Shown here in pieces: positions 8,650 to 22,813 of a stretch of DNA of 30,809 nucleotides; within the stretch, counting starts at the first letter, position 1, and each line of letters begins with the position of its first letter. The stretch is taken from positions 1 through 30,809 of IMG/VR virus record IMGVR_UViG_3300031565_005660; one strand, given 5' to 3'. The notes beneath the pieces were generated by a model. That model was not told the origin of the DNA, searched no databases, and saw only the letters and a program-made list of their open reading frames with translations. The DNA comes from a virus. The translations under genes were made by a program, and so were the position numbers.

Positions 8650-9003
8650 TTATATAGGCGTCAGCCTATGTCTCCATCCCGGCCCGTCATCTTCCGGGTC
8701 CAGTCGGCCCAGAACGTGCAGGCCGCGTCCCGAACCGCTACTCGCGTTCGTATGCGACTGCCGCTGCTGAGATTCCAGCGCCTCATGTTCCGAGACCGCA
8801 TCGGCAATCGCTTCTATCGCCGCCATAAGGAGCCAGGGTTGATCGGCCGTCCCGCCGGCGCAGGGCAGAAAGCCAGCCTGGTAGTGGCGGTATGCCCTGG
8901 TAGCGAGGGAGAATGCGGCGCTTTCGGCGGACGGTTCTTCGTCCGCGAGGACGCGGCGCGCCTCCTCGCGGACCCAACGCAGGAACCGCCGCTCTAGGCT
9001 TCC
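8650..9003 (-). CDS. Frameshift extension of tail assembly chaperone (gpGT-like T part)
   Basis: This 117-residue reading frame is -1 relative to the chaperone gene and stays open from the end of that gene to a TAA at 8650-8652, filling the gap before the tape measure. It has no ATG, GTG or TTG in its first 59 codons, so it has no normal start. Reached by a -1 slip on the five-G run at 9002-9006, it would extend the chaperone from 171 to a 286-residue product (169 + 117). The peptide is protein-like: Arg/Glu helix (ERRFLRWVREEARRVL), a Trp-Leu-Leu-Met-Ala-Ala helix, then a polar tail. Position, size and frame match the G/GT arrangement of lambda and many siphoviruses. The product is inferred; the open frame is seen directly. 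Confidence 0.78.
   Translation of the reverse strand, partial: GSLERRFLRWVREEARRVLADEEPSAESAAFSLATRAYRHYQAGFLPCAGGTADQPWLLMAAIEAIADAVSEHEALESQQRQSHTNASSGSGRGLHVLGRLDPEDDGPGWRHRLTPI
8654..8669 (-). promoter_or_regulatory. Small hairpin just before the tape measure start
   Basis: ATAGGC and GCCTAT form a perfect six-pair stem around a four-base loop, ending five bases before the GTG of the tape measure gene, which has no good Shine-Dalgarno site of its own. It may tune translation of the tape measure by coupling to the upstream frameshift product. It is short enough to be chance. Confidence 0.35.
8941..8973 (-). promoter_or_regulatory. GC-rich 11-bp stem-loop downstream of the frameshift site
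   Basis: GTCCGCGAGGA at 8941-8951 is the exact reverse complement of 8963-8973, with an 11-base spacer that itself contains GGCGCGCC. In the mRNA the stem begins 28 bases after the G run at 9002-9006. It is not followed by a U tract, so it is not an intrinsic terminator. It may help ribosome pausing at the slip site, though the spacing is longer than the usual 5-9 bases. Confidence 0.5.
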
Positions 9004-9509
9004 CCCTCGTCCCCGTCCTCCATCTCGATACCCTGGAATTCGCGGATCGTATCCCGTACCCAGTCCGTCACATCAGGACTGAGGTCGCGGAACACACTCC
9101 AGTTAGCGCCCTGCTCGCGGAAGGTCACATCCCTGCCATCGTGAATCAACTTGAAATCGACCACGGACAGGTTGACAAGAACGCGGAGCTGCTCGACCAT
9201 ATCCATATCGAAGCGACTATGAACCGTCTTCCTTGTCTGTCGACGGCCGCGAGGCACTTCGAGTTCGTACTTCTGCCCCGCGGATAGGTACTGGTCGCGC
9301 TGCGTTCCCGTCCAGCCCTTCAGTCTGATAAAGTAGGTATCGCTGAGTCGGACGGTGCCATCGGAGTTGCGCCCCTCGGGCAGGTAGAACGTTTGCTCCT
9401 GCGGCCCTACGCGCATCTTGGCGACGAGGTTCATATCCTCGTCCTCGGTTGGCGGTTCCGCCTTTGTCTCCGGTGTCTCGGAGAACTCCGGCGCGTCTTC
9501 TAGTCCCAT
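8994..9509 (-). CDS. Tail assembly chaperone (gpG-like, short form)
   Basis: 171 residues, ATG at 9509 with AGGAGG eight bases upstream. It lies between the tail tube and tape measure genes, the standard place for the chaperone that coats the tape measure during tail assembly. The N-terminus is acidic and likely disordered (residues 1-25). Residues 27-115 form a beta-rich region with a D-T-Y-F-I-R-L-K-G-W-T-G step, and the C-terminal part carries W-V-R-D-T-I-R-E-F-Q-G before a Glu/Asp tail (MEDGDEGEA). The last codons hold a slippery G run leading to a longer -1 product. No enzymatic motif. The assignment rests on gene order, size and the frameshift layout. Confidence 0.82.
   Translation of the reverse strand: MGLEDAPEFSETPETKAEPPTEDEDMNLVAKMRVGPQEQTFYLPEGRNSDGTVRLSDTYFIRLKGWTGTQRDQYLSAGQKYELEVPRGRRQTRKTVHSRFDMDMVEQLRVLVNLSVVDFKLIHDGRDVTFREQGANWSVFRDLSPDVTDWVRDTIREFQGIEMEDGDEGEA
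9002..9006 (-). promoter_or_regulatory. Candidate -1 ribosomal slip site
   Basis: The chaperone frame reads GAG GGG GAA GCC TAG here. The five consecutive G bases let the tRNA on GGG re-pair one base back, giving GGA AGC CTA in the -1 frame. It is not a perfect X-XXY-YYZ heptamer, since the following GAA cannot re-pair fully. It lies two codons before the zero-frame stop, as in many tail chaperone genes. Confidence 0.6.
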
Positions 9510-9542: not shown

Positions 9543-10403
9543 CTATCCATCCAGCGTCCAGTCCGTCAGCAGATATGGCATCTCGACGACGATGTCGCCG
9601 CGAGCCGGAATCTGCAGATCGGCATTCCGTGCCTTCAGGCCGTTCAGCGTCAGCGTCATAGTCTGCGCGGGGCTGACATCGGAACAACTACAAAATGTCA
9701 TAACGTGATCGGCTCCCGCTAGCAGGCAGTCCTGAAGATCGACGTCTGCATCGGCGAGAAAATAGGTCAGTGTCCCACCGATCTCTGACGGCCCTTCATC
9801 GAGAAAGTCCCATATGCGCTCAGGGTCCCTTGTCGTCACGGTCCCCGCGATCACCGGCATGGGTTCCAGGCCATTGCGGCAGTAGAACTCGAACGCCCGC
9901 AGGTCCCGCGTCTCGTCCCATGTCATCTCGAACCAGCGGTAGGCACGAGAGGAGAAGAACGACATATCACCGGGGTCGGCTGCGAGCTGTGCGACTTTCC
10001 CGCCGATCAGGTTTACGTCGGCATTCAGGCGGCCGCCGGCGTCACACCGCATCGTGATATCGCCGATCTTGCAGTCCTGGATGATCGCGCGGTAGACATC
10101 CGCGCCCTTATGGTATCCGATCTTGATCGTCAGCCACTGGAGTTCGCCAGTGACCGCGCTTCGCTTGGCGTACTGGAGGAAGTGTGGGTCCTCTACGGCC
10201 GTAATGCTAAGGCCGACCTCCGCCAGCGTCATCCCTTCGCTGAGTTCGACGGGGTCCCAGTCACCGACCGAATAGAGCGGCTCGATACCGCTCGGCACAT
10301 TCATGTGCGGCCGGTCGATAATGCCCAGGGCGGAATAGCCCACCGCAGGGATTCCCTTCGCACCCTGTGTACCATAGAAACACCTACCGTATGCTCCCTT
10401 CAT
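9543..10403 (-). CDS. Probable major tail tube protein
   Basis: 286 residues, ATG with AAGGAGACAGGGACG directly upstream, a strong ribosome site that fits a highly made protein. The sequence is beta-rich and soluble with alternating hydrophobic strands (VELSEGMTLAEVGLSITAV, DITMRCDAGGRLNADVNLIG) and a C-terminal TMTLTLNGLKARNADLQIP strand pair, as expected for siphovirus tail tube subunits. It starts 20 bases inside the end of the GT9 glycosyltransferase gene and is followed by the tail chaperone. Four Cys residues occur (C8, C113, C120, C183 approximately) plus a CSCSD stretch near 236. Identification is by position, size and fold pattern rather than a specific motif. Confidence 0.8.
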   Translation of the reverse strand: MKGAYGRCFYGTQGAKGIPAVGYSALGIIDRPHMNVPSGIEPLYSVGDWDPVELSEGMTLAEVGLSITAVEDPHFLQYAKRSAVTGELQWLTIKIGYHKGADVYRAIIQDCKIGDITMRCDAGGRLNADVNLIGGKVAQLAADPGDMSFFSSRAYRWFEMTWDETRDLRAFEFYCRNGLEPMPVIAGTVTTRDPERIWDFLDEGPSEIGGTLTYFLADADVDLQDCLLAGADHVMTFCSCSDVSPAQTMTLTLNGLKARNADLQIPARGDIVVEMPYLLTDWTLDG

Positions 10404-11415
10404 CGTCCCTGTCTCCTTGAGGGTCTATTCGCGGCCCAGGCGAGCGCAGTCGCTCAAGCGCCGCGGAAACGACCTGCGTCGGCTCTACAGCCGAAACGCA
10501 AGAACCAGGGACGTCCAACTCGCCGACCTTGCAGTCGGCATTCCAGCACGGCCAGCAGTCAAGCCCCTCGGGCTCAAGTGCTGTTACATCGTAACGCGGC
10601 CCCACAGACCCGGCCGCGGAAGTGGCGCAGAAGACGGCGACGGACGGCACCCCCAGGGCAGCCGCTAGATGCATCGGCCCTGTGTCGCCCGAAACAACAA
10701 GGTCACAAGCCGCCAGGAGCCCCGCCAAAGACCGGATATCCATCGCCGGCGGCTTTTTACAGCAGGGCAGAATCTCATCGCCGAAGCCGACGACGGCACA
10801 GCCCTCGTGTGCCAGGTCCTTCGCGACGCGCAGCATCCCGCGGTATCGCCGCGACTCCCAACCCGTCTTCATAAAGACCGCGACGACGGGCTCGCCTTCG
10901 CGACGCCAGCCTTCGACGCCCTCCCTACCCATAGCGACTTCCTGCTCGGTAAGCGCGAAGTGGGGCCGCGCATCCTCAATGTCGAAATTCCAGTAGTCGC
11001 CGAAACAGAGCGCCGCCGGTCTCTCGGTCCGGCCCGGATGATGTTCGAGCCAGCCGTCCATGATCACGGAATGCACGGGCGATTCCCAGTGGATACCATT
11101 CCCAAGGCCGTTTATCATCGGCGCGTAGTTCGGGTGGGTGATGATCTGGCATTCGGCCCCATTATCCATCAGCATCCGCGCGGCTGGGGTAAGGCATAGA
11201 ACGTCTCCGAAGCCGGAACGCCGGCGCACGAGATACCGACCCACGCATAGTTCCTCTGCTCGTGGAATCTCTACCTGGCCAGCGTCGACCAATTCCTTCG
11301 CGAGGGACTCGGGAACTCGCGCAAGCCAGCCCTTGGACTCGTCGAAATGGACGACGCCCAGAGGGTATCGAACCTTCTGGGCACCATAGCTCCGTATCGC
11401 GCGCATCCTTAGCAT
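10384..11415 (-). CDS. GT9-type glycosyltransferase (heptosyltransferase-like)
   Basis: 343 residues. Two blocks mark glycosyltransferase family 9: an N-terminal RYLVRRRSGFGDVLCLTPAA at 60-79, matching the 'hR-x-x-G-x-GD-hhhh-P-x' start of the first Rossmann fold, and SGDTGPMHLAAALGVPSVAV at 242-261, the nucleotide-sugar binding loop. A C-terminal CWPCWNADCK with a later SC matches the Cys cluster common in this family. Residues 1-55 form an extra N-terminal piece. The enzyme would transfer a sugar from an activated donor; donor and acceptor are unknown. It is odd in a tail operon: it overlaps the tail terminator gene by seven bases and the tail tube gene by 20, so it is co-expressed with them. 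ATG at 11415 is used; ATG at 11406 is possible. Confidence 0.88.
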   Translation of the reverse strand: MLRMRAIRSYGAQKVRYPLGVVHFDESKGWLARVPESLAKELVDAGQVEIPRAEELCVGRYLVRRRSGFGDVLCLTPAARMLMDNGAECQIITHPNYAPMINGLGNGIHWESPVHSVIMDGWLEHHPGRTERPAALCFGDYWNFDIEDARPHFALTEQEVAMGREGVEGWRREGEPVVAVFMKTGWESRRYRGMLRVAKDLAHEGCAVVGFGDEILPCCKKPPAMDIRSLAGLLAACDLVVSGDTGPMHLAAALGVPSVAVFCATSAAGSVGPRYDVTALEPEGLDCWPCWNADCKVGELDVPGSCVSAVEPTQVVSAALERLRSPGPRIDPQGDRDDEGSIR

Positions 11416-12794: not shown

Positions 12795-13508
12795 CTATGC
12801 CTTGTACGCCGCCGCGGGGAGTCGGGCCGCGTCGAGGAAGTCTTTCTCTAGCGCCTCTGCCTGCTTGAACAACGAAGCGACCATCGTTCCGATTCCACCC
12901 ATATCTTTCGTGTAGGGTCCGAGAGTCAGGCGGCCGCCAGAGGCCACTACCGTCGCCGCACCGCCCGTCGCCATCACTGCCGTCGCCACCGCCTTGCCCG
13001 CCATAATGAGCAGATCGGCGTCCTCGGTCGGTACCGTATCGGCAGTAGCGTGCCATGCCGTATAGATCACCGCCAGGGTTGTCGCACTCTCCGGGCGAGG
13101 CATGATGCGAACCGTACCACCCGGCATATCCTGCTCCCACTTCGTCCCGAACTGCCGCGCCCAGTGCTCCAACTTCTGCCGGTAGATATCCACCTGCGAA
13201 GGCTGGTTGAAGTCCATAATCACGTCGCCGGCGGCCAGCGCCTCCGATAGGGTCGAGGTGTCGCCGATCAGTTCGCTCAAATCCTCTAGTGCGTCGATGG
13301 GGGCCAACTCAATACAGAGATAGCCGCCCGCGGGAAGGCTGTACTCCTCTACGTCCGCACTTACCGCAATCGTCCCAAGTACGTGGCGCGGCCGCTGCCT
13401 GGAATACATGCGGACCGCGTCCTTAACCGCCTGCGTCCACTGCGGGTCAGTCAGCCCCGCCCCGAAACCGAGCAGTTTCAGTTCCGCGATGAGTTCTACG
13501 TTGGTCAT
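12795..13508 (-). CDS. Probable head-tail connector (adaptor) protein
   Basis: 237 residues, ATG at 13508 preceded by CAGGAGAGAG. The N-terminal 40 residues (NVELIAELKLLGFGAGLTDP, then W-T-Q-A-V-K-D-A-V-R-M-Y-S-R) match helical adaptor proteins of the gp6/gp15 connector class, in which a Tyr-Ser-Arg helix packs against the portal. The C-terminal third is helical and Ala-rich with G-P-Y-T-K-D and a final helix QAEALEKDFLDAARL, like other adaptors. It is the first gene after an intrinsic terminator, so the neck and tail genes probably start a new transcript or rely on antitermination. It also restarts the structural gene order that the sugar cassette interrupts. Confidence 0.72.
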   Translation of the reverse strand: MTNVELIAELKLLGFGAGLTDPQWTQAVKDAVRMYSRQRPRHVLGTIAVSADVEEYSLPAGGYLCIELAPIDALEDLSELIGDTSTLSEALAAGDVIMDFNQPSQVDIYRQKLEHWARQFGTKWEQDMPGGTVRIMPRPESATTLAVIYTAWHATADTVPTEDADLLIMAGKAVATAVMATGGAATVVASGGRLTLGPYTKDMGGIGTMVASLFKQAEALEKDFLDAARLPAAAYKA

Positions 13509-13529: not shown

Positions 13530-13564
13530 CCATATAAAAGCCCCGGCCTATATAGGTGCGGGGC
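13530..13564 (-). terminator. Intrinsic terminator after the sugar-modification cassette
   Basis: On the minus strand GCCCCG (13564-13559) pairs with CGGGGC (13545-13540); inside, CCTATATAGG adds an inner stem. The hairpin is followed by TTTTATAT, a good U tract. It lies between the zinc-ribbon gene and the connector gene and would end transcripts of the cassette. Confidence 0.8.
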
Positions 13565-13593
13565 CTCTCCACTATGGCGATAGCTAAAGGCGA

Positions 13594-13896
13594 TTACATA
13601 CCGATTACCTGCGCGTCGATATCGTCGGGAACCCGCCGCATGATTCGTCCACACTGCCGGCACTTAAAGTCGCGAGGCTGCGAGGTTCCGGTTTCCTCGC
13701 GCGCTCTACGGTCCTGGCTCATATAGAGCCCCGTATCGCCCGCGGCCACCGGCTCGAACTGGCCGAATAGGGACGCTTCACAGGCGCCGCAGGTGTCCAG
13801 GGGCAGGTCGGTTGGCGAGGCCGTCTGCCCCTGAACGGGAGGTGAGGCGTGAGCAGCGGACGTTTTCCGCGTGATGTCTCGCATAGTCGTCGGCAT
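13594..13896 (-). CDS. Small zinc-ribbon protein, last gene of the cassette
   Basis: 100 residues from the ATG at 13896, which overlaps the stop of the upstream glycosyltransferase by one base (TGATG). A longer in-frame start at 13941 would add a Gly-rich extension inside that gene. Cys36-x-x-Cys39 and Cys79-x-x-Cys82 form a four-Cys zinc ribbon separated by 39 residues; the first 30 residues are polar and likely disordered. Function unknown: such ribbons bind nucleic acid or protein partners. It directly precedes a terminator, so it closes the cassette's transcript. It could be a regulator, an adaptor for the sugar enzymes, or a small virion protein; the sequence does not decide. Confidence 0.75.
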   Translation of the reverse strand: MPTTMRDITRKTSAAHASPPVQGQTASPTDLPLDTCGACEASLFGQFEPVAAGDTGLYMSQDRRAREETGTSQPRDFKCRQCGRIMRRVPDDIDAQVIGM

Positions 13897-14858
13897 CAGC
13901 CCATCGCTCCCTGGAGAAACTCTCGCCAGTCCGCCTCCCACCTATCTAATCCGCCGAACTCCTCGGCCCAGGCTCGCGCGCCCAGCGAAACCGCCTGCCG
14001 CCGCGCTAGAACCCGCGTCAATGCCTGACTCCACTGCTCGACAGCCGCGTCATCCGTCGCTACCACCGGCACTGTCTCCCCAACTGGCAGGCCATTCATC
14101 ATGCCGCCTTCGATGTCGGCGAACAGTCCCACATCACTCGCCACAATCGGTAGTCCACAAGCCAACGCCTGCAATCCCGCATAGGGGCAGCCATCTGCGC
14201 GGGACGGGGAGACGAAGATGTCTCCAGCAGCTATAGCTTCGGCCTCTGCTCCGATCCCCGCCCCGATCAGTCGGAACTCGATATCGGGCCGCCTCCTCGC
14301 GAGTGCCGCTATCACATCCCCGCCCTTCGGCATGGCGTCGCTCGGATAGATTGCGATGGGCCGTTCCCGCGCCGGATGCTGCCGCGGCTGGTACTCGTCT
14401 AGGTCCAGTCCGTTGGCGATGATCGCCGCCGGCTCGACTCCGTACATACCCTGCAACTCCCACTTGGTATAGTGGCTAACAGCTACGGTGGGTAGCCGCC
14501 GGTATTCGGCCTGTTGTATCTCGCCGAGCCGCATAGCCTCCGCTGAATTGCAGGCCAGTCCAATGCCCTTCCAGGTTCCATGGGCCACCGAGATTACCGG
14601 GCCGTCAAAGTCCACCAGTCCGCGGCCCCAGAAACCGTCCACGATAACCGCCTCAATGTCGTTCAGCGCGCCCGATGAGACAAGCCAGCGCCCTAGCAGA
14701 TCAGCCGCGCCAGCCTCGTCTACTCGCGCCTTCTGCGGCATGTCCGACCACGAGTAAAGCCGCGCGCCGAGCTGCTGCTCCACGTAATGGCCAAACAAAG
14801 GGACACCGCCAGGGTGTCCTTCGCTCCGCTTGTAGAAAGCTATGTGGGCGAGATTCAA
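13896..14858 (-). CDS. GT4-type glycosyltransferase (GT-B fold)
   Basis: 320 residues from a TTG at 14858 with AAGGA seven bases upstream. This start gives a family-like N-terminus (MNLAHIAFYKR); the longer frame to 14915 would run into the previous gene. Family motifs of retaining GT4 enzymes are present: A-N-G-L-D at about 148-152 and SPSRADGCPYAGLQALACG at about 217-235, the E-x-x-x-x-x-x-E region in which the first acidic residue appears as Asp222 and the second as Gln229, plus G-L-P-I-V-A-S-D-V-G. The usual second Glu is thus replaced by Gln, which may alter donor binding. The central sugar-donor domain is complete. It would extend a glycan; target unknown. Confidence 0.87.
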   Translation of the reverse strand: MNLAHIAFYKRSEGHPGGVPLFGHYVEQQLGARLYSWSDMPQKARVDEAGAADLLGRWLVSSGALNDIEAVIVDGFWGRGLVDFDGPVISVAHGTWKGIGLACNSAEAMRLGEIQQAEYRRLPTVAVSHYTKWELQGMYGVEPAAIIANGLDLDEYQPRQHPARERPIAIYPSDAMPKGGDVIAALARRRPDIEFRLIGAGIGAEAEAIAAGDIFVSPSRADGCPYAGLQALACGLPIVASDVGLFADIEGGMMNGLPVGETVPVVATDDAAVEQWSQALTRVLARRQAVSLGARAWAEEFGGLDRWEADWREFLQGAMG

Positions 14859-14868
14859 GTGGATATCC

Positions 14869-15099
14869 TTACCAGAATAACCCTGGCGCGCAAACGGCGC
14901 AGGGGTACCAACCACAACCCATCATGCTCCGCGCCTGTCCTTCCGAAATCGCAATCACGTCCTCTCCGGAAATCCGGGGGCAGTCCGGTCGGTTGTGCAG
15001 GCAGGTATCGAACCAGCGGCGATACATAGTTCCGGTTCCCGACTGCCCCGCCTGACGAACCACCATGGCATCCCGTTTGGCGGTTACCTCCATGGCCAT
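14869..15099 (-). CDS. Small Cys-rich protein in the sugar cassette
   Basis: 76 residues from the ATG at 15099, overlapping the TAA of the methyltransferase gene by one base (TAATG). It carries Cys33, His35, Cys40, Cys62, Cys67 and Cys70, with a YPCAVC pair near the C-terminus, enough to bind one zinc ion. The motif D-T-C-L-H-N-R-P-D-C-P and GCGWYPCAVC suggests a small treble-clef or ribbon fold. Nothing indicates an enzyme. It lies between a methyltransferase and a glycosyltransferase with tight overlaps, so it is co-translated with them. A longer start at 15156 lies inside the previous gene and is less likely. Confidence 0.68.
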   Translation of the reverse strand: MAMEVTAKRDAMVVRQAGQSGTGTMYRRWFDTCLHNRPDCPRISGEDVIAISEGQARSMMGCGWYPCAVCAPGLFW

Positions 15100-15722
15100 T
15101 AGCTCTCTCGTCTCCTCATGGTAAGCAGGGTGCATCGCAGGTTCGCGGTCTCCCAATCGTCGGATGGAAAGACCGTCTCATTGACGAACCGTATGATGTC
15201 CACCCAGTCCTCGTAATAGTCATGGATAGCCAACCAGCCGCCTGCTACTACATGCTCATGAAACCCCTCGTAGTCGCCGCGTATCCCTTCATAGGTATGC
15301 TCGCCATCAATGAAGAGCAGTCCAATCTCTCGCTGCCAGACCTTCGCGATTTCCCTGGAGTCGGCTCGAATGGGCGTCACCTGCGCCCCCAGCCCGAAAA
15401 GGTCAATGTTGAAATCGAAGCGCTCGCGGTGTTGGTCCCCGCCCTTCAGCCCGCTTGCCGGACTATACGGTCCCCAGGTGTCGATAGCCCAGACGTGCGC
15501 GCCCAGACCGGCCGCGGCACCCAATCCGAGCCGGCACGTCGACCGCCCGCGGAGGGAACCGATTTCTACGATAGCCTTGTCTGCGGGCACCCGCGCCGCG
15601 AGCCACGTAAGACGCTGCGCCTCATCCTCCTGTAGGTAACCCCAAACCCGTTTAGGGTGCGGGGTACATTTCAACGCCATCAGTTCGTTGTCGGGCGTCT
15701 GTGGTATCGTCGCCGTGTCCAT
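15099..15722 (-). CDS. Class I SAM methyltransferase, MTase_24 / sugar O-methyltransferase-like
   Basis: 207 residues from ATG at 15722 (TGATG overlap with the upstream methyltransferase; GGGAG six bases before). SAM-binding motif I is IVEIGSLRGRS at 51-61, the form used by MTase_24 and TylF/CmcI-like enzymes. L-L-F-I-D-G-E-H-T-Y-E-G at 135-146 and A-I-H-D-Y-Y at 165-170 supply the metal-binding Asp/His residues of that family. Family members O-methylate small molecules and sugars. Beside glycosyltransferases, methylation of a sugar hydroxyl is the most likely role. No membrane segment; cytoplasmic. Confidence 0.87.
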   Translation of the reverse strand: MDTATIPQTPDNELMALKCTPHPKRVWGYLQEDEAQRLTWLAARVPADKAIVEIGSLRGRSTCRLGLGAAAGLGAHVWAIDTWGPYSPASGLKGGDQHRERFDFNIDLFGLGAQVTPIRADSREIAKVWQREIGLLFIDGEHTYEGIRGDYEGFHEHVVAGGWLAIHDYYEDWVDIIRFVNETVFPSDDWETANLRCTLLTMRRRES

Positions 15723-16420
15723 CAGTCGCTCCCGCCAAGCCATGGCACCGCCGGGGGCTTCGCAACGATCACTTCTAGCGCGTCGCAGTCCGCCGCGATT
15801 ATAGAGAGCCCCGCCCTCATGCAAACCTCAAGCAGTTCGCCGGGATACCAGCGCCGGAAGTTCGCCGGCCAGTCGCCCCGGTCAGCCTCCTCGAATCGCT
15901 GCGGATAGCGCATCGCTGGAACCTGAAGCCATGCTATGCCATCGTCAGTCAGAACGCGCGGCAGGTCGCGCAGATACCGGACCACTACCTCTCTGTCCAT
16001 GTGCTGGAAGACCATGTGGGAGAAAGCAAACTGGATAGCACCATCCTTGATGGCTTCCAGCGAATATCCGCTGCCCTTTACGAGCACGACCTTCCCACCC
16101 TGCGTCATAATTGGCATCCGCTCGGCGGCCTGCCGCAGCATCTCGCCGCTTACGTCGAGCAGGTGGTAGGTCCCGACGACTGGGGCGAGATACTTGGCCG
16201 TCCTGCCGGTGCCCCCGCCGATATCGAGAACCGTCACCGCGGCACGATCCTCGAAGAAGAAATCGACCAGGCCGGCGAGATACTTGGCGTCCCTCTGCCC
16301 GCTCTCCTCAAACCATTCGGGACTCGCCCGGTAGCAGATGGCACTCGTCGAGTTCTCTTTCGCGAGTCGGTCCCAGAGCGCGTCCATCGAAGTCCCTGGG
16401 TCCCATTTGCCCTCAGGCAT
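15722..16420 (-). CDS. Class I SAM-dependent methyltransferase
   Basis: 232 residues, ATG at 16420 eight bases inside the phosphatase-like gene, GGAGGG upstream. Motif I is VLDIGGGTGRTA at 64-75, followed by H-L-L-D-V-S-G-E-M (acidic loop binding the SAM ribose), then D-G-A-I-Q-F-A-F-S-H-M-V-F-Q-H (motif IV region) and R-D-L-P-R-V-L-T-D-D-G (post IV). This is the Methyltransf_11/25 architecture; substrate is not set by sequence. Start and stop overlaps on both sides place it in the sugar cassette operon, so a sugar or a glycan-linked residue is the likely acceptor. A second methyltransferase of a different subfamily is adjacent. Confidence 0.87.
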   Translation of the reverse strand: MPEGKWDPGTSMDALWDRLAKENSTSAICYRASPEWFEESGQRDAKYLAGLVDFFFEDRAAVTVLDIGGGTGRTAKYLAPVVGTYHLLDVSGEMLRQAAERMPIMTQGGKVVLVKGSGYSLEAIKDGAIQFAFSHMVFQHMDREVVVRYLRDLPRVLTDDGIAWLQVPAMRYPQRFEEADRGDWPANFRRWYPGELLEVCMRAGLSIIAADCDALEVIVAKPPAVPWLGGSD

Positions 16421-17384
16421 AACCTAGACCCTCCAGTTGTCGTCGAATTTCGGCCTCGTCTACCGCCCCGCCCTCGGTGATCTGCGTCAATGCTATCCCC
16501 TCTATCCGCCGTGAGGGGGCCGCATCGAGCAGGTAGAGCAGCGTGGGAGTAACGTCTTCTACACTCACTTCCAAATTCTCGACTGGCCGTGCCTGTGGGC
16601 CCTTGTAGGCGATGATTCCGCGCCGCGTCGCCGGGTAGTTCGGCCCATGGCATAGACCCCAGCCATCCCCCTCGCGGGGTTCATCGGTCAAATCCAGCGC
16701 ATGGTCGGAAACAATGAATGTCCATTCGGGGTAGAGAGTGAACTCGAACCGCTGCAGCATCACCCGTATATCCGCCACGATGCTCTTCAGGGTCCGCTTC
16801 TGCCGGAACGTCCGATAGGCATAATGCGCGAGTCTGTCCAGGTCCGTCAAACAGAGAATGGCGAGATCGGGCTGCCCCTTCTTGAGTTCCACGAGGAATC
16901 TGTGCGCGAGTGCCCACCGGGCAGCATGGCAAGTCTCCATCAGGTCCTTGTCTGGACAGGCGAGGAAATCCCAGGAGGGCTCGCCTTGATGCGCGTAGTA
17001 GAGGTCGAGGTCGCGCCATGCCCAATCCACCGCCGCCTGCCGCGGGAATGTCCGATTCTTTTCGGGCGCGGGATACCCGCAGACGAGAAGCCGCCGCACC
17101 AACCGGGGCGGGTACGTGAAGGGCACATTGATCGCCACCGTTTCCATATCCGCGGCCGCGAGGTGGTCCCATACATAGGGCGGCCGCTTCAGGCCCTTAA
17201 GCATTCGCGGCTGTGGGACGTGCGGGATACCATGCCCCTCCGCCGTCAACCCCGTGAAGATGCTCGTCCAGGCGGGACCCGATAGTGCATGCGGGGAATC
17301 CAGAACGCCGGTATGGAAGCCGTCTTCCTCCAGCCAGTGCCGCCAGTCGTAGGAGTAGCCGTCAATGCCTACTACGAGAATCAT
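16413..17384 (-). CDS. Alkaline-phosphatase-superfamily phosphodiesterase/phosphatase
   Basis: 323 residues from ATG at 17384, overlapping the stop of the double glycosyltransferase (ATGA). The metal site of the superfamily is visible: Asp8 in VVGIDGYS, nucleophile Thr40/Ser41 in GPAWTSIFTGL followed by H-G-I at 51-53, D-x-D-x-x-x-H at 181-187, S-D-H at 226-228 and His246 in CHGPNY. The C-terminus has EDVTPTLLYLLD, which is the usual end of type I phosphodiesterase / nucleotide pyrophosphatase and related enzymes. No signal peptide or membrane segments, so cytoplasmic. Possible roles are hydrolysis of a nucleotide-sugar or phosphosugar, or transfer of a phospho-alcohol to a sugar. Such an enzyme among phage head genes is unusual. 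Confidence 0.85.
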   Translation of the reverse strand: MILVVGIDGYSYDWRHWLEEDGFHTGVLDSPHALSGPAWTSIFTGLTAEGHGIPHVPQPRMLKGLKRPPYVWDHLAAADMETVAINVPFTYPPRLVRRLLVCGYPAPEKNRTFPRQAAVDWAWRDLDLYYAHQGEPSWDFLACPDKDLMETCHAARWALAHRFLVELKKGQPDLAILCLTDLDRLAHYAYRTFRQKRTLKSIVADIRVMLQRFEFTLYPEWTFIVSDHALDLTDEPREGDGWGLCHGPNYPATRRGIIAYKGPQARPVENLEVSVEDVTPTLLYLLDAAPSRRIEGIALTQITEGGAVDEAEIRRQLEGLGYA

Positions 17385-19483
17385 GCCTGCGCCCTCCACT
17401 GCGCGACCCTTGCGCGGAATACCTTATCATCAGCGAGCGCCCTCTCCCGCGTACCCTCGGGCCGTCTGCCACCTGGAGCGAGGAAATGCCAGGCGAGGGC
17501 CTGGGTGTCAACGAGTAACTTCTTCTTACCGAGAAGGTGCAACCTAACGCTCGCATCGGATTCTTCCCGCTGTCCGAACCGGCTATAGCAATCCGCGAAC
17601 CCGCCGACCTCCTGGAGCGCACTCGCCCGATACATCCACGTCGAATATAAGTGTTCGCACTCCACGACCGCCTCGTCGGAGAACTGCCAGAACTGCAGCC
17701 TCGCATGGCCGGCCAGCAGATCGGCCAGCGTATTCGTCATCCCTCGCTTGGTGGCAAGAGGGCCGTATTCATGCAGGACTCCATCGCTGTGCATGGGATA
17801 GCAGCCGCCGACGGCCCCGACTTCGGGTTGGTTATCAATCAAGCGGTAAAGACGCTCTATGAAATCCGGTCGGGCTGGCAGAAGGTCGTCGTCAATTCTT
17901 AGGACGAGATCGGTCCCGAGATGTTCTAGCGCGATTTGATGGTTCGGACTGGCACCCCTTCCCGAACCCTGGACTATATCGCACGGGATACCGCTCTGCT
18001 CCCAGCGCTCGACCATCTGTTTGACGGCGGAATTGTCTCGTAAGGTTGGTTCGCCATCATTCACGATACAGATGGCATTCGGGCGCTTCGTCTGCACGTA
18101 GAGCGCCGATAGTAAGATCGCGAGGTATCCCGGTCTATCTCTCGTGGGGATACCTACGCCGAGCGTTTCCATCCCTGGCGGACTGGGGGCGCCGAGAACC
18201 GCGGCACCGCTGGATTTCGCGAGTGGAGTCCCTGGAACAGACTCGCGGACGGTTTCGGGTCCTCGGCGCTCCTTCAGTCCCAAGACATCGGCGATACCGC
18301 GGGCCATGCGCGCATATGTGAATCGCTGCCGCAGGTCCTCGGCGATCTCCCTCTGTTTCAACTCGTCGGGCGACTCCTCGAATACCCGCCGCATCCAGTC
18401 GGCGACGTCCGCGAGGTCGGGTTCGGCCCACAGCGGCCTTTCGTCAGCCTCATAGAGACCGAGGTTGTTGTTGCTCGGGGCCATCATGTAGGGGAACAAG
18501 TGCGCGTTCTCATCTGTAGCATATTCGAGTTGCCCGCTCCACCCGGTAGTACCGAGTCGGCAGCCGCAGGCCAGCGCCTCCAATCCCGTCAAGCCGAACC
18601 CTTCGACTCGTGCTGGCGCGAGATACGCGCCGTGCTGCGCGGCGCGCCGGTAGAATGCAGCAACTTCGCTATCCATCCATGGCGGTTGTGAATTGCCCAT
18701 GCCCATCTGATATATATACTCGACCCGCGGTGCCTTACTGCCGAGTCGCTTCCGCCATTCGGCAATGATCTCCCGGCACCAAGCATCGCGGCCATAGTCG
18801 TAGTTCTTGACTACGAGCAGAACTTTGTCGGAACGCTTGAATGCCTGCCCGTAAGCCTCCAGCGCGACATCAACGCCCTTGCGAGGCGACATAGCGCCGA
18901 CCATGGCGAAGATGAATGAGTTGCCGCCAATATCCATAATCGGACCGTCAGGACAAAACAGCGATGTATCGATTCCATTCGGAATGACCCGCAGGCGGTC
19001 CTCCGATACCCCTGCCGCACTCAGGGCATCTCGCACGGCACCGCTTACGCAGATGTTCCCCGTGAAGTGCTCTAAGAAGTACGCGACGTGATTACGTGGC
19101 GCGATGCTATTGTCGAAATGAAACCATGACCAGGAACCGGACGGCCCCTCGAATGTCCCCGCGTTGCAGAGCAGACTCTTTCCTATCGGGGGCTGGTCAC
19201 GATTTGCTCGCCACGTCTGCCGGTCCACCGAGAAGCCCATGCGTTGCAGTGCCAGAGTGACTTGCCGTGAGAGTGTGCAGAGGGAATGCCCACAACCCGG
19301 CATACAGGGGGTTCGATAGAGCGTCATATTCGATGTGGTCGGATCGTCGATGACCTCTACCGAGGACCCGAAACCGCCTAGTGCGTTAATTGGCAGAACC
19401 GTTGTCTCGCCCGCGCGAATCAACCAAATGCCCGAAAGCTGATCGACCCTGGACGTATTTCGTACCTTTACCGTTTCTGACAT
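17381..19483 (-). CDS. Two-domain glycosyltransferase: GT4 (GT-B) fused to GT2 (GT-A)
   Basis: 700 residues from ATG at 19483 with GGGAG six bases upstream; an in-frame ATG at 19537 would place an intergenic hairpin inside the gene. Residues 1-50 form a small beta domain (V-R-N-T-S-R-V, I-R-A-G-E-T-T-V-L-P). A short Cys segment with CMPGCGHSLC lies near 60-69. Residues 70-415 are a GT4 domain with VIPNGID at 166-172 and EGFGLTGLEALACG at 294-307, in which both family Glu are kept. Residues 440-700 are a GT2 domain: G-I-P-T-R-D-R-P, I-V-N-D-G-E, metal-binding RIDDDLLP at 530-537 and an R-E-E-S-D acceptor loop near 639-643. Two sugars could be added in sequence by one chain. It opens the cassette. 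Confidence 0.9.
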   Translation of the reverse strand: MSETVKVRNTSRVDQLSGIWLIRAGETTVLPINALGGFGSSVEVIDDPTTSNMTLYRTPCMPGCGHSLCTLSRQVTLALQRMGFSVDRQTWRANRDQPPIGKSLLCNAGTFEGPSGSWSWFHFDNSIAPRNHVAYFLEHFTGNICVSGAVRDALSAAGVSEDRLRVIPNGIDTSLFCPDGPIMDIGGNSFIFAMVGAMSPRKGVDVALEAYGQAFKRSDKVLLVVKNYDYGRDAWCREIIAEWRKRLGSKAPRVEYIYQMGMGNSQPPWMDSEVAAFYRRAAQHGAYLAPARVEGFGLTGLEALACGCRLGTTGWSGQLEYATDENAHLFPYMMAPSNNNLGLYEADERPLWAEPDLADVADWMRRVFEESPDELKQREIAEDLRQRFTYARMARGIADVLGLKERRGPETVRESVPGTPLAKSSGAAVLGAPSPPGMETLGVGIPTRDRPGYLAILLSALYVQTKRPNAICIVNDGEPTLRDNSAVKQMVERWEQSGIPCDIVQGSGRGASPNHQIALEHLGTDLVLRIDDDLLPARPDFIERLYRLIDNQPEVGAVGGCYPMHSDGVLHEYGPLATKRGMTNTLADLLAGHARLQFWQFSDEAVVECEHLYSTWMYRASALQEVGGFADCYSRFGQREESDASVRLHLLGKKKLLVDTQALAWHFLAPGGRRPEGTRERALADDKVFRARVAQWRAQA

Positions 19484-19502
19484 CCGAGGCTCCCGGAATG
19501 TA

Positions 19503-19531
19503 GGGGAGGGCGACAGATCGCCGCCCTCCCC
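19503..19531 (-). promoter_or_regulatory. Perfect 10-bp hairpin between capsid gene and glycosyltransferase gene
   Basis: GGGGAGGGCG at 19503-19512 is the exact complement of CGCCCTCCCC at 19522-19531 with a nine-base loop. On the minus strand it follows the capsid gene stop by 38 bases and precedes the next start by 19. There is no U tract after it, so it may be an mRNA 3'-end stabiliser or a partial or factor-assisted terminator rather than an intrinsic terminator. Confidence 0.7.
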
Positions 19532-19569
19532 ACTCATTGCGTCAGTCAGTCCAGTCGGTACCGTTCAGA

Positions 19570-22500
19570 CTACCAACCCACGCCCTGAACAGCCGGCTGG
19601 CAGGTGACGGTCGCAAGGCTGTTGCCTACGACCTTGGAGTAGCCGAAGCGGCTCATCACCGCAACTGTCTCACAGAGGGTATCCGGGTTGACAAACGCCG
19701 GAGCGGTGTAGAGCGGAATGAACGGGCAGTAGACCATGCCCGAGTCATACCAGTCCGCACCCTTGCGCCCAACGAGAATCAACTCGGTGGGCCAGAAATC
19801 GGGGTCGGCACCGTAGACCTTGTACTTCGGCTGTCCGTCCAAGGTCCCAACGCGGTTGATACCGACTTCCCACTCGGCGGCTTCCGCGTCTACGGTCGTT
19901 GCCGACCAACTCTCTAATCGCATCAGTCGAATCAGCGCGTTCGACCCGGCGACGGCCCAATTCGTGCGGGCGCGTCGCTGCGCCCGGACAAGGCCATCTG
20001 CCTGCAGGATGTGCCGGTAGAGTTCCTTCTGCCAGGTGCCAAGTTCGACGTAGCCGGCAGCCGGCAGGAGACAACCGAAGTTCACATTGCCGGCGGTGAC
20101 GTTACCAGCCGGGTCCGCGGCGGTTCGCATGGTATTCATGAGCAGGGCGACCACCTCTCGGGCGATCTCGTCTGCCATGAAGTTGACCATCTCCGCCTCG
20201 ATAGCGATACCGTGGTCTGCCCGCAGGTTCTGGCGGACTTCACTCGACCACTGCGCCCGCAACTTCTTCGTGTCCATGGTGATATCAGCGTGAGTCAGGC
20301 TGAGCTTCACCTGCGGTATAGTGGCCTGTTCAGAGACGTACTGAGCGTAGTCAGAACAGAACTCGCCCGGAATAGCCGGGTTGCCCAGCGTCGGGTCGTA
20401 GAGGAAGTCGAGGAAGTGGACCACGCCGGTCGACTTCGTCATGGGCTGAACGCTCATCAGTTCCATAACCCACTGGAGACGCGCCCACACCTGCCGGATG
20501 ATCGGCAGGACGTAAGGCACCGTCTGCGCGACGTTCGTGGTGCCCGTCCATTCGAGCATAGCGAACTGGGGCCGGTACTGCCGTAGGTTCGCCATCAGGT
20601 AGTTGGGGTACATGCGGATCACGTTTTCCACCACCGTGCGGAAGACGTGATTCGGGTTGCCGGGGTGGTACCCGTGGAAGGGGGCATCCCCGCCCAACGC
20701 CCTCGCAACCGGGTCGTCGGGATCGGTGGAACTGTGCAGGCCATTGTCGGGAATCCCCTCGCACAAGAGATCGAGAACTTCTTCGCGGCTCTCGGGGAGG
20801 AAGCGCGGGGAAAGTACGCCAAGCTGGAACTCCTTGGCGCGGTCCTCGCGGCTCTTTTCGGGGGTGGAAGCGACGTGGGCGGCGGTAATACCCATTCCGC
20901 CCGGACGGTTGATGATCAGCAGGCCGATCTCCTGAAGGGTGCGCTCGGTACGCTCATAGGTCGGCTGAAGCTGGTCGACTTCCGTGACCTCCGCCAACCT
21001 CTGCTCCATGAGCTTGCGCGCTGGCGGTTCCCATGCCTTGACCTCGTCGGTCTCCATGATCGCCGTGGTAGCGAGCTTGAGGGCCGCGGCCTTCTCCTCA
21101 GCCTTCTTCTCATCGGCCTGGCCCTGCACGTAAGTCGTAACGACTTCGGCTAGGCTATCAATACGCCCGGACATCTCACTAAGTTTGTCCGGTTCCTTCG
21201 TCTCCGTCTTCGGCTTGGGCTCTTCGCCGTCAACCTTTGGCGGATCGGCACCCGCGGCAGGCGGGTCGCCTTTCGTCTCCATGAGGACCTGTACGCCGGC
21301 GGTCGTGCCCTTGGCGACGGCCTCCTGGATGAGCTTCTGCAACTCTTCTGTGGTCATTTCGTCTAGCACCTCGTCGATGGTCTCTCCAGGAACATCACTC
21401 GACGAGGGAGCCGAAGCGGCTGCCGCAGGCTGACCGTCCCTCTCCCTGAAATTGCGAACGCCCGCGACCTCATCGCCCTCGTGGGCGGCAGCGCCTAGGA
21501 CGAAGTCCCAGCCGCCGAGGTTCGCGAGCGCCGTCTTCTCATCTACAATCTCAACTGTTTGTCCGTCTCTTACCTCCGTAGTCGTGATAGCGGCAGTGCG
21601 CGAACTCACCTGCACCGGAACGCCGTTGCGGACGAGCCGCTGCACATCAGCGCCTTTGCTAGTGTTGATAACGTCCGTCGCCCCCAGCAGGTGATTGCCT
21701 TCGAGCCGCAAGTCCCGCCAGGGGGTGCAGACCGTATCCATAAGCCGGGGCCGGCCGTCGGCAGGGTGGTCACCCTCGCCGAGCCACCGCTTCGAGCGGG
21801 CCGTGCCCTCCTTCGACTCCGCGACGATACTCTCAAAGAGGCCCTTGGGGTAGACTCGCCCATTCTTCGTGGGGGTGTCCGCAATACCGAGCAGGCATTC
21901 CACCGTCATAAGGTGGTCGGTGCTGCCCGCGGTCGTGGTCGTGTCCTTCTCGGCGACGATTCGGACGGGGGCGGTGTAGGTTTCGAGGAGTTCAGTCGTC
22001 TCGGCTTGCGCTGGAACATCGCCGGCGAGGGTCGCTTCGCCGTCGCCCGCCGGGGGTGCCGTGCGAATCGCTTCGGCGTCGTCAACGCGCAGAACGGCCC
22101 GCACCTGGCGAATGTCCTCCAGGGATACCGTGCCGTCCTCGCCTCGCTTCCATGCGGCCCGGTAGAGCTGCCCCTGGCCTCCACTGACGACCACGCGGTT
22201 GCCGAACGTGGCCTCCAGGCTCGGCCCCCACTCTTCCTCCGACCCGAAGGACTGGTAACCGTCCTTGATCGCCTTGCGGATGTCCCGCATGTCGGCCTCA
22301 TAGCTGCCGTCGATGCGAACGTAGACCTCCATGAGGGGCGACGTCTCAGCAGGCACCGGAAGGGCGGGGAACTCTTGCCCGTCGTCCATCGCGTAGATTG
22401 AGGCGCGGGCGTCCGGGAAGGCCTGCTCCCTCACCTTTCGCGGTGTCTCCATCACGACGGAATCCGCCTGCTCCAGGAGGATGCGCAACTCGGTAGCGCC

Positions 22501-22707
22501 ATCCTCGTCGCCGCGCTCCAATGCCGCGCGAATCTGTGCCTCGATGCTGTCCCTGACCTGGGCCATGTCTAGCGTCTCCCCTGCCGCTTCCTGCGGCGTC
22601 TTGCCGTGTCGCTTGTGGTACGCGATGGCGCAGATGCGCTTCGCGTCGGCCAGGGACTTCCCGGATTTCTTTTCGCTCGCCACGCAGGCGAGGTATTCCT
22701 TGGGCAT
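19570..22707 (-). CDS. Prohead protease - scaffold - major capsid polyprotein (gp21/gp22/gp23-like fusion)
   Basis: 1045 residues from ATG at 22707 (AGAGGC before it; an in-frame start at 22791 would read through a terminator-like hairpin). Residues 1-45 form a small Cys-containing module (C8, C26). Residues 265-420 resemble T4 gp21 prohead protease: KNGRVYPKGLF, then GEGDHP with catalytic His314, and VQVSSR with candidate Ser368/369. Residues 440-600 are charged, E/K-rich and helical, like a scaffold core. Residues 604-1045 resemble T4 gp23: A-H-V-A, QPMTKSTGVV at 754-763, KLRAQWSSEVRQNLRADHG at 815-833, and CPFIPLYTAPAFV before SRFGY. LxE sites at 591-593 and 637-639 are possible cleavage points, since gp21 cuts after such motifs. 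Fusing three separate T4 functions is remarkable. Confidence 0.85.
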   Translation of the reverse strand: MPKEYLACVASEKKSGKSLADAKRICAIAYHKRHGKTPQEAAGETLDMAQVRDSIEAQIRAALERGDEDGATELRILLEQADSVVMETPRKVREQAFPDARASIYAMDDGQEFPALPVPAETSPLMEVYVRIDGSYEADMRDIRKAIKDGYQSFGSEEEWGPSLEATFGNRVVVSGGQGQLYRAAWKRGEDGTVSLEDIRQVRAVLRVDDAEAIRTAPPAGDGEATLAGDVPAQAETTELLETYTAPVRIVAEKDTTTTAGSTDHLMTVECLLGIADTPTKNGRVYPKGLFESIVAESKEGTARSKRWLGEGDHPADGRPRLMDTVCTPWRDLRLEGNHLLGATDVINTSKGADVQRLVRNGVPVQVSSRTAAITTTEVRDGQTVEIVDEKTALANLGGWDFVLGAAAHEGDEVAGVRNFRERDGQPAAAASAPSSSDVPGETIDEVLDEMTTEELQKLIQEAVAKGTTAGVQVLMETKGDPPAAGADPPKVDGEEPKPKTETKEPDKLSEMSGRIDSLAEVVTTYVQGQADEKKAEEKAAALKLATTAIMETDEVKAWEPPARKLMEQRLAEVTEVDQLQPTYERTERTLQEIGLLIINRPGGMGITAAHVASTPEKSREDRAKEFQLGVLSPRFLPESREEVLDLLCEGIPDNGLHSSTDPDDPVARALGGDAPFHGYHPGNPNHVFRTVVENVIRMYPNYLMANLRQYRPQFAMLEWTGTTNVAQTVPYVLPIIRQVWARLQWVMELMSVQPMTKSTGVVHFLDFLYDPTLGNPAIPGEFCSDYAQYVSEQATIPQVKLSLTHADITMDTKKLRAQWSSEVRQNLRADHGIAIEAEMVNFMADEIAREVVALLMNTMRTAADPAGNVTAGNVNFGCLLPAAGYVELGTWQKELYRHILQADGLVRAQRRARTNWAVAGSNALIRLMRLESWSATTVDAEAAEWEVGINRVGTLDGQPKYKVYGADPDFWPTELILVGRKGADWYDSGMVYCPFIPLYTAPAFVNPDTLCETVAVMSRFGYSKVVGNSLATVTCQPAVQGVGW

Positions 22708-22735
22708 ATCGCCTCTATGAGTCACCACGCCCGGC

Positions 22736-22778
22736 CAAATAGAAACCCCCCGGTCTCTCTCGGCCGAGAACGAGGGGT
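22736..22778 (-). terminator. Terminator-like hairpin upstream of the capsid gene
   Basis: ACCCC at 22745-22749 pairs with GGGGT at 22774-22778, and an inner TCTC/GAGA stem (22758-22769) around GGCC sits within. On the minus strand TTTCTATTT follows. It lies between the 64-residue gene and the capsid start, only about 30 bases before the ATG. It could limit upstream read-through or protect the 5' end of the capsid message. Confidence 0.55.
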
Positions 22779-22780
22779 GA

Positions 22781-22813
22781 TGAAGCTTCACGGCCTGCCG
22801 CTAGCTAGGCGGC
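22781..22813 (-). promoter_or_regulatory. Palindrome and second hairpin in the capsid gene leader
   Basis: TGAAGCTTCA at 22781-22790 is a perfect 10-base palindrome, and GCCGC/GCGGC at 22797-22801 and 22809-22813 form a five-pair stem around TAGCTAG. With the adjacent terminator-like hairpin they fill the 140-base gap between 22708 and 22847, which holds no gene. No clear -35/-10 pair was seen here on the minus strand. Confidence 0.4.

Follow-up and report, generated by a model that had tools for sequence, protein, structure and literature searches.

A conserved seven-gene cassette between the capsid and connector genes of a phage as a candidate virion-decorating operon

The IMG/VR virus record IMGVR_UViG_3300031565_005660 carries, between its capsid gene and its connector genes, a cassette of seven genes rich in glycosyltransferases (GT) and methyltransferases. 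We analysed the whole record, a stretch of 30,809 bases that we call the window; where the two were compared, it matches part of a 54,174-base IMG/VR contig (G001) with 100% identity. The phage genes named here are all on the minus strand. In the order of transcription, they encode a ParB-like DNA methyltransferase, TerS, TerL, the portal, a MuF-like protein and the protease-capsid open reading frame (ORF), then the seven cassette proteins, the adaptor and connector proteins, a GT9 enzyme and the probable tail-tube protein, and finally the tail chaperone, the tape measure and tail proteins. No tRNA and no Rfam family was found in the window. An earlier note on this DNA, the original prediction, had described the seven ORFs, the families to which they belong (including the two methyltransferases) and their location, after the capsid gene and ahead of those for the connectors; all this is confirmed. 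It had missed the GT9 gene, which forms a second glycan locus. The features are:

19570..22791, minus strand: a single ORF of 1073 aa for a prohead protease (Peptidase_S77) and a Gp23-type major capsid protein, the neighbour upstream of the cassette (Pfam PF03420, E 3.8e-9, and PF07068, E 3.8e-38; PHROG 207 and 138)
19503..19531, minus strand: perfect hairpin with a 10-bp stem and no T-run, between the capsid stop and the GT4-GT2 start
17381..19483, minus strand: two-domain glycosyltransferase GT4-GT2, 700 aa; the ORF opens at 19537 (PF13439, 3.2e-9; PF00534, 2e-8; PF00535, 1.4e-9)
16413..17384, minus strand: alkaline-phosphatase (AP)-superfamily, type I phosphodiesterase-like enzyme, 323 aa (PF01663, 22.5 bits, cut-off 23)
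15722..16420, minus strand: class I S-adenosylmethionine (SAM) methyltransferase, Methyltransf_25/11 (PF13649, 6.2e-13)
15099..15722, minus strand: Methyltransf_24 protein, O-methyltransferase-like, 207 aa (PF13578, 2.4e-19)
14869..15099, minus strand: small Cys-rich protein, 76 aa, no family above cut-off
13896..14858, minus strand: GT4 glycosyltransferase, 320 aa, TTG start (PF13692, 1.8e-10)
13594..13896, minus strand: zinc-ribbon-like protein, 100 aa, two CxxC pairs, no Pfam match above cut-off
13530..13564, minus strand: terminator-like hairpin fold, then TTTTAT
12795..13508, minus strand: head-tail adaptor (SU10_adaptor-like), the neighbour downstream of the cassette (PF24175, 4e-5, below cut-off)
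10384..11415, minus strand: GT9 (heptosyltransferase-like) gene, overlapping the start of the next tail gene (PF01075, 1.9e-13)
9543..10403, minus strand: probable tail-tube protein, so named from its place ahead of chaperone and tape measure (phrog_290, 3.1e-9, labelled "minor tail protein" in PHROG)

The set is a stable part of this phage type. We scanned viral contigs with AP, GT4-GT2, adaptor, TerL and capsid queries and found the set in three lineages: the window with G001 and G002 (98-100% identical over aligned DNA), G003 and G004 (~82% in DNA) together with a partial contig (L018), and G005. All five contigs that span capsid to adaptor (G001-G005) carry it. Four of these five were first found by cassette queries. 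Still, capsid-only scans return the same five contigs as the records with a capsid identity of at least 52%, all with the set, and a second, narrower capsid scan found the same relatives as the first. Hence, the presence of the set is not only due to the use of cassette genes as queries. The original prediction had called the cassette inserted. This is not supported, since all five contigs of this capsid type in the capsid scans carry it, and a recent insertion is rejected by the synteny of L105, part of G005 and thus of the only intermediate relative among the matches listed (capsid 50-52% identical). L105 keeps the GT4-GT2, AP, methyltransferase, GT4 and zinc-ribbon genes in the same order. 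The search for this gene order that had been proposed thus found the same core order in three phage lineages.

The cassette and most virion genes share a history. Protein identities with G005 are 51-53% for GT4-GT2, 46% for AP, 55-56% for Methyltransf_25, 53-54% for GT4 and 49% for the zinc ribbon. Outside the cassette they are 54% for the adaptor, 50% for the portal, 49% for MuF, 50% for the capsid, 48-57% for the connectors and 69% for TerL; the GT9 protein is 55% identical and encoded at the same place. Because the five shared cassette genes and most virion genes are alike in identity, they diverged together. Between the window and L008 (a locus that belongs, with L004, to one contig, in a relative ~82% identical to the window), dN/dS is 0.075 for GT4-GT2, 0.113 for AP, 0.108 and 0.095 for the methyltransferases and 0.126 for GT4; the small proteins give 0.128 (zinc ribbon) and 0.289 (Cys-rich). 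The values for the virion side are 0.119 (portal), 0.121 (MuF), 0.216 (capsid) and 0.086 (adaptor), and those for the connector h2t, TerL and TerS are 0.174, 0.181 and 0.322. These ratios are rough, since dS is in several cases close to 1 or higher; they show strong purifying selection on the five cassette enzymes, similar to that on portal and adaptor.

Some slots of the cassette are variable. In G002 (L003 8583-10013), a gene for a 476-aa DNA N4/N6-methyltransferase lies between GT4-GT2 and AP. It probably came in by recombination at the junction, because the end of GT4-GT2 in L003 resembles the L008 version. In L105, the same junction holds an unrelated 264-aa gene. In L004 (12559-13290), a 243-aa nucleotide-sugar-dehydrogenase-like gene precedes GT4, with matches to TIGR03026 (9.3e-21, below cut-off) and PF00984 (1.4e-7, above); its product has a GGKCLPKD motif and is too short to include a C-terminal domain. 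Gaps of matching size precede GT4 in L005 and L018. The Cys-rich protein is 63% identical in L008. Neither it (tested to E 1) nor Methyltransf_24 has a match in G005, where their slot holds an 86-aa ORF and an unrelated methyltransferase (PF13489, 3.4e-9). Judged by gene content, the core of the cassette is GT4-GT2, AP, one methyltransferase and GT4, and the slot of the second methyltransferase has been refilled.

The organization of the genes is compact. Five of the six junctions overlap (ATGA, 8 bp, TGATG, TAATG and TGATG), as expected from the start-stop overlaps noted before at most junctions, and the sixth is a 10-base gap. Three starts were shifted, those of GT4-GT2 and GT4 by comparison with relatives and that of Methyltransf_24 by overlap. 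We rejected the ATG at 19537 as the start of GT4-GT2, since there is no ATG at that place in L004/L008; by this comparison the gene probably starts at 19483, which leaves the hairpin at 19503-19531 untranslated. GT4 starts with TTG at 14858 and Methyltransf_24 at 15722. The N-terminal 68 aa of GT4-GT2 have no match in phages, and its fold model (pLDDT 34.5) is useless.

The original prediction had described the set as bounded by hairpins. On the capsid side this agrees with our results: the perfect 10-bp stem, with a 9-nt loop, is present and recurs at the same place in relatives. Counting perfect stems of 10 bp or more (loops of 3-12), the window has two, this one included, against a total of 7 in 20 first-order Markov resamplings (0.35 per window), such that by stem count alone the hairpin is only modestly beyond chance. 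L105 has in this gap a perfect stem of 14 bp whose sequence is unrelated, and L004/L008 keep the pairing, with one G-C changed to G-U. Since the structure is kept without conservation of the sequence, we take it as a real RNA element. It has no T-run and is probably a site of RNA processing or attenuation. On the adaptor side, the fold at 13530-13564 and its TTTTAT are real features of the sequence and are kept in G002 (99.7% identical there), and they were seen in the window/G002 group only. They are absent from L004/L008 and L105, where the stop of the zinc-ribbon gene overlaps the adaptor start. We therefore rejected this terminator as a boundary of the cassette, and the set is not hairpin-bounded on this side in general. 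The terminator scan did not flag it, in our reading because its loop exceeds the limit of the scan; the two other matches of the scan are fewer than the mean of 3.8 in shuffles. Given its overlap with the adaptor gene in relatives, the zinc-ribbon gene may lie outside the glycan set.

The AP-superfamily enzyme is the new element of the set. The match to PF01663 is just below the cut-off of 23 in the window (22.5 bits), and the L105 orthologue reaches 43.5 bits; three of five records are above the cut-off, with G001 and G002 below. The residues D8, T40, D183, H187, D227, H228 and H246 (323-aa form) do not vary among three phage sequences, each from a different lineage. In an alignment with three archaeal members, of which two give strong PF01663 matches, the first six residues are matched, and the alignment of H246 is not clear. 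We take these residues to be the metal ligands and the Thr/Ser nucleophile, as in the nucleotide pyrophosphatase/phosphodiesterase family. The fold model is weak (pLDDT 48); the best 50 of 404 Foldseek matches are AP-superfamily proteins, as we presume from their titles, and none has E < 0.001. A phmmer search against solved structures gave nothing at E 1. The residues and the PF01663 matches support the superfamily assignment. The hydropathy profile has no hydrophobic segment, in which the enzyme differs from the superfamily's phosphoethanolamine and phosphoglycerol transferases. There is no tblastn match to the enzyme in 50,697 phage records, and among the phage-glycan papers listed by our search, by their titles and the starts of their abstracts, none describes a virion cassette with an AP-superfamily enzyme.

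Scans with the AP alignment found four archaeal proteins on genome contigs (23-32% identical) and four haloarchaeal ones on plasmids (22-27%). All four genes on genome contigs are near flippases, glycosyltransferases, nucleotidyltransferases or epimerases. Three of the four on plasmids are near flippase, lipopolysaccharide-biosynthesis or glycosyltransferase genes, and one is without such annotation in a plasmid gene table that is incomplete. The neighbourhoods of these seven of eight cellular relatives, for which we have no background rate, suggest a glycan-linked phosphate reaction. The "possible phosphate chemistry" of the original prediction comes from an enzyme whose superfamily is supported and whose reaction and substrate are putative. 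No close cellular source of the cassette was found in these scans, which covered cellular genomes with the AP alignment only and not with the GT and methyltransferase genes.

We suggest, with a probability of roughly 0.6, that the cassette is a late-expressed operon that decorates the virion by glycosylation. Synteny, co-divergence with virion genes, purifying selection, the failure to find a membrane glycan exporter and the precedents discussed below keep virion glycosylation, the function first proposed, as the best reading; the gain of a nucleotide-sugar-dehydrogenase-like gene in one lineage and the glycan genes near seven of the eight cellular AP relatives also count for it. While the particle is built, GT4-GT2 and GT4 would use nucleotide-sugars in the cytoplasm to glycosylate a virion protein, and the most likely target would be the capsid protein encoded just upstream. 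The SAM methyltransferases could cap these sugars with methyl groups. The soluble AP enzyme could carry out a phosphate reaction on the glycan or on the sugar donor, by cleaving a sugar-phosphate or nucleotide-sugar intermediate; it is less likely that it moves a phosphate group onto the glycan. The GT9 enzyme, encoded against the probable tail-tube gene, would glycosylate the tail tube, and the hairpin after the capsid gene probably keeps the capsid message above that of the enzymes. Virion proteins mature in the cytoplasm, and soluble enzymes would therefore suffice. A more specific version, with a methylated, phosphodiester-containing glycan made in the cytoplasm, the AP enzyme as a soluble phosphotransferase, and GT4-GT2 and GT9 serving capsid and tail tube, each beside its target, is tentative and on balance doubtful.

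Several observations weigh against virion glycosylation. GT4 and GT9, like the AP enzyme, have no match in the 50,697 phage records, and GT4-GT2 has only two weak ones. At the position of E-x7-E, the usual GT4 motif, the GT4 enzyme has D..Q in the window and in L008, and E..E in L105. The cassette GTs have no phmmer match to the GTs of the phages Firecracker, phiAsp2 and TurkishDelight (best blastp E 2.5e-4 over 82 aa). Genes unrelated to glycans enter the set, such as the DNA methyltransferase of L003, which makes it also a hotspot of gene insertion. The identity of the tail-tube gene beside GT9 comes from its position. Finally, Che8-type glycans are reported at the C termini of capsid and tail-tube proteins (PMC12619734), and in the translations here we saw no obvious Ser/Thr-rich tail at the C termini.

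Comparable gene sets are known. In cluster O phages such as Corndog, genes for an O-methyltransferase (gp35), two glycosyltransferases (gp36 and gp37) and a putative N-acetylglucosaminyltransferase (gp38) lie between portal and protease; their products were seen in infected cells and not identified in virions, and a 2015 paper proposed that they methylate and glycosylate the capsid (PMC4351075). The cluster O enzymes are said to modify capsid and tail tube (PMC11600133), and Che8, Corndog and Myrna are listed as phages with glycosylated proteins (PMC12363180, citing Freeman et al. 2023). The pairing of GT9 with the tail-tube gene would fit these reports of glycosylated capsid and tail-tube proteins in mycobacteriophages. 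As in the window, cluster O genomes have an O-methyltransferase-like gene and glycosyltransferases inside the structural genes, and Firecracker gp33 matches PF13578, as does Methyltransf_24. The cluster O block lies between portal and protease, whereas the set of the window lies between capsid and adaptor and includes an AP-superfamily gene, for which the Firecracker block has no annotation. The enzymes have no phmmer match to four Firecracker proteins and only noise in blastp (E >= 0.55), such that the resemblance of the set to those of cluster O would be one of function. To call it the best candidate for an undescribed system was hence too strong, since cluster O phages have a comparable block (PMC4351075, PMC12363180), and on present evidence it is not an undescribed kind of system.

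Other phages share parts of this pattern. Che8 (cluster F) also encodes its glycosyltransferases, which here are GT4-GT2, GT4 and GT9; the portions of the sources available mention no AP enzyme for the Che8 type. In Maravista (F1, related to Che8), the GT genes are near the 3' end of the genome (PMC11256854). The Streptomyces phage TurkishDelight has, between its capsid and head-to-tail adaptor genes, a glycosyltransferase with two GT4 domains (gp20), but no methyltransferase or AP gene is annotated beside it and its capsid gave no match (tblastn, 1e-5). The Actinoplanes phage phiAsp2 has a block of a glycosyltransferase, a Methyltransf_24 protein and a glucosyltransferase (pas33-pas35), but this lies after the tail genes and has no AP enzyme annotated. 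TurkishDelight and phiAsp2 also have the nearest named TerL (~54% identical). In our comparisons, homology of the set to known phage systems extends to Methyltransf_24 and Pas34 only, which are 33% identical.

Alternatively, the cassette could alter the surface glycan of the host during infection or in lysogens, which would keep out competing phages or mask the receptor, like the serotype-converting genes of prophages. Loci for surface polysaccharides typically encode enzymes of its three types (GT, methyltransferase and AP), seven of the eight remote cellular AP relatives are near genes of this type, and G001 has a tyrosine integrase gene, which makes lysogeny possible. In G001 (L011 10880-12782), this gene is followed by those of a DUF4190-like membrane protein and a pseudopilin-like N_methyl protein, possibly host-derived cargo and a clue to the host; the latter gene is reminiscent of Armatimonadota. 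Serotype conversion of the gtr type uses a membrane flippase and a multi-pass transferase, and by hydropathy no ORF is a candidate for either in the two long contigs, G001 (54 kb) and G005 (57 kb). In these contigs, which may be incomplete, no flippase, polymerase or clearly multi-pass membrane protein was seen. Among their ORFs of at least 60 aa, only the tape measure reaches three hydrophobic segments at a cut of 1.6 (four control membrane proteins: 7-9); at the looser cut of 1.3, a few more ORFs have three or four, and the tape measure of G005 has seven (controls: 9-14). Moreover, the cassette enzymes lack hydrophobic segments, and their genes are surrounded by those of the virion and have diverged in step with them. 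We thus regard an action on the host surface as unlikely.

The set could also be a loose run of accessory genes with separate functions, in an insertion-prone stretch behind the capsid gene. The genes found at the GT4-GT2/AP junction in L003 and L105, the dehydrogenase-like gene ahead of GT4 in L004 and the other genes in the Methyltransf_24/Cys-rich slot of L105 point this way. But GT4-GT2, AP, Methyltransf_25 and GT4 keep their order across ~50% protein divergence, with low dN/dS, and this explanation seems improbable to us. PADLOC gave a single match, of mad2 to the Methyltransf_25 protein (1.4e-13), which we read as a shared fold and rejected.

Hypermodification of DNA against host nucleases needs a base hydroxylase or hydroxymethylase to feed the GTs. 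A role of the GTs and methyltransferases in such a pathway is very improbable: phage GTs were reported to glucosylate phage DNA (PMC12619734) and G001 and G005 encode a C5 DNA methylase, but none was found in the cassette-bearing G002 or G003 (both may be fragments), three records (which may be incomplete) have no match to Tet/JBP (PF12851, a weak test in which control genomes matched only below cut-off) and no thymidylate-synthase-like hydroxymethylase (PF00303), and a place beside the capsid gene is unexpected. The failure to find flippase-like, Tet/JBP or hydroxymethylase genes thus weakens the host-surface and DNA-modification explanations.

Other observations concern the neighbouring genes. 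This phage, which has tape measure and tail chaperone genes, encodes its protease (Peptidase_S77) and gp23-type capsid domains as a single ORF; the fusion has 1073 aa in the window (19570-22791, minus strand) and 877 aa in L105 (8097-10730). Its N-terminal part (window ~21999-22447) differs sharply between the window and G002, with flanks at least 98% identical, and is on sequence grounds a swapped module. In the tail chaperone region (window 8650-9509, minus strand), the chaperone ORF ends with GAG GGG GAA GCC TAG, the -1 frame is open for 116 codons further, and an 11-bp perfect hairpin (8941-8973) lies just downstream, which in our reading makes a programmed -1 frameshift likely. TerL is up to 77% identical in phage contigs, many of them short, that have no match to this portal or capsid (loci L027-L101). 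Of 176 confirmed TerL loci we kept 80, and 6 of the 80 have the portal type of the window; besides TerL, the other 74 match only TerS, the DNA methyltransferase, a weak MuF (3 loci) and, once, a weak neck protein. TerL thus appears mobile against the capsid, with an apparent transfer of its gene from one capsid lineage to another. Among 35 records of TerL relatives of at least 15 kb, PF00534 is above cut-off in four and PF01663 in one, anywhere in the record.

In the literature that we surveyed, it is mainly mycobacteriophages that are linked to virion glycosylation. Here the cassette is stable in another capsid lineage (gp23-type, fused to a protease), which suggests that decoration of the virion has arisen repeatedly and often beside structural genes. 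This decoration may include AP chemistry that had not been linked to phage particles in the literature and phage records searched. In our judgement, the set makes testable, with recombinant genes, the question of how a sugar coat benefits a phage in nature.

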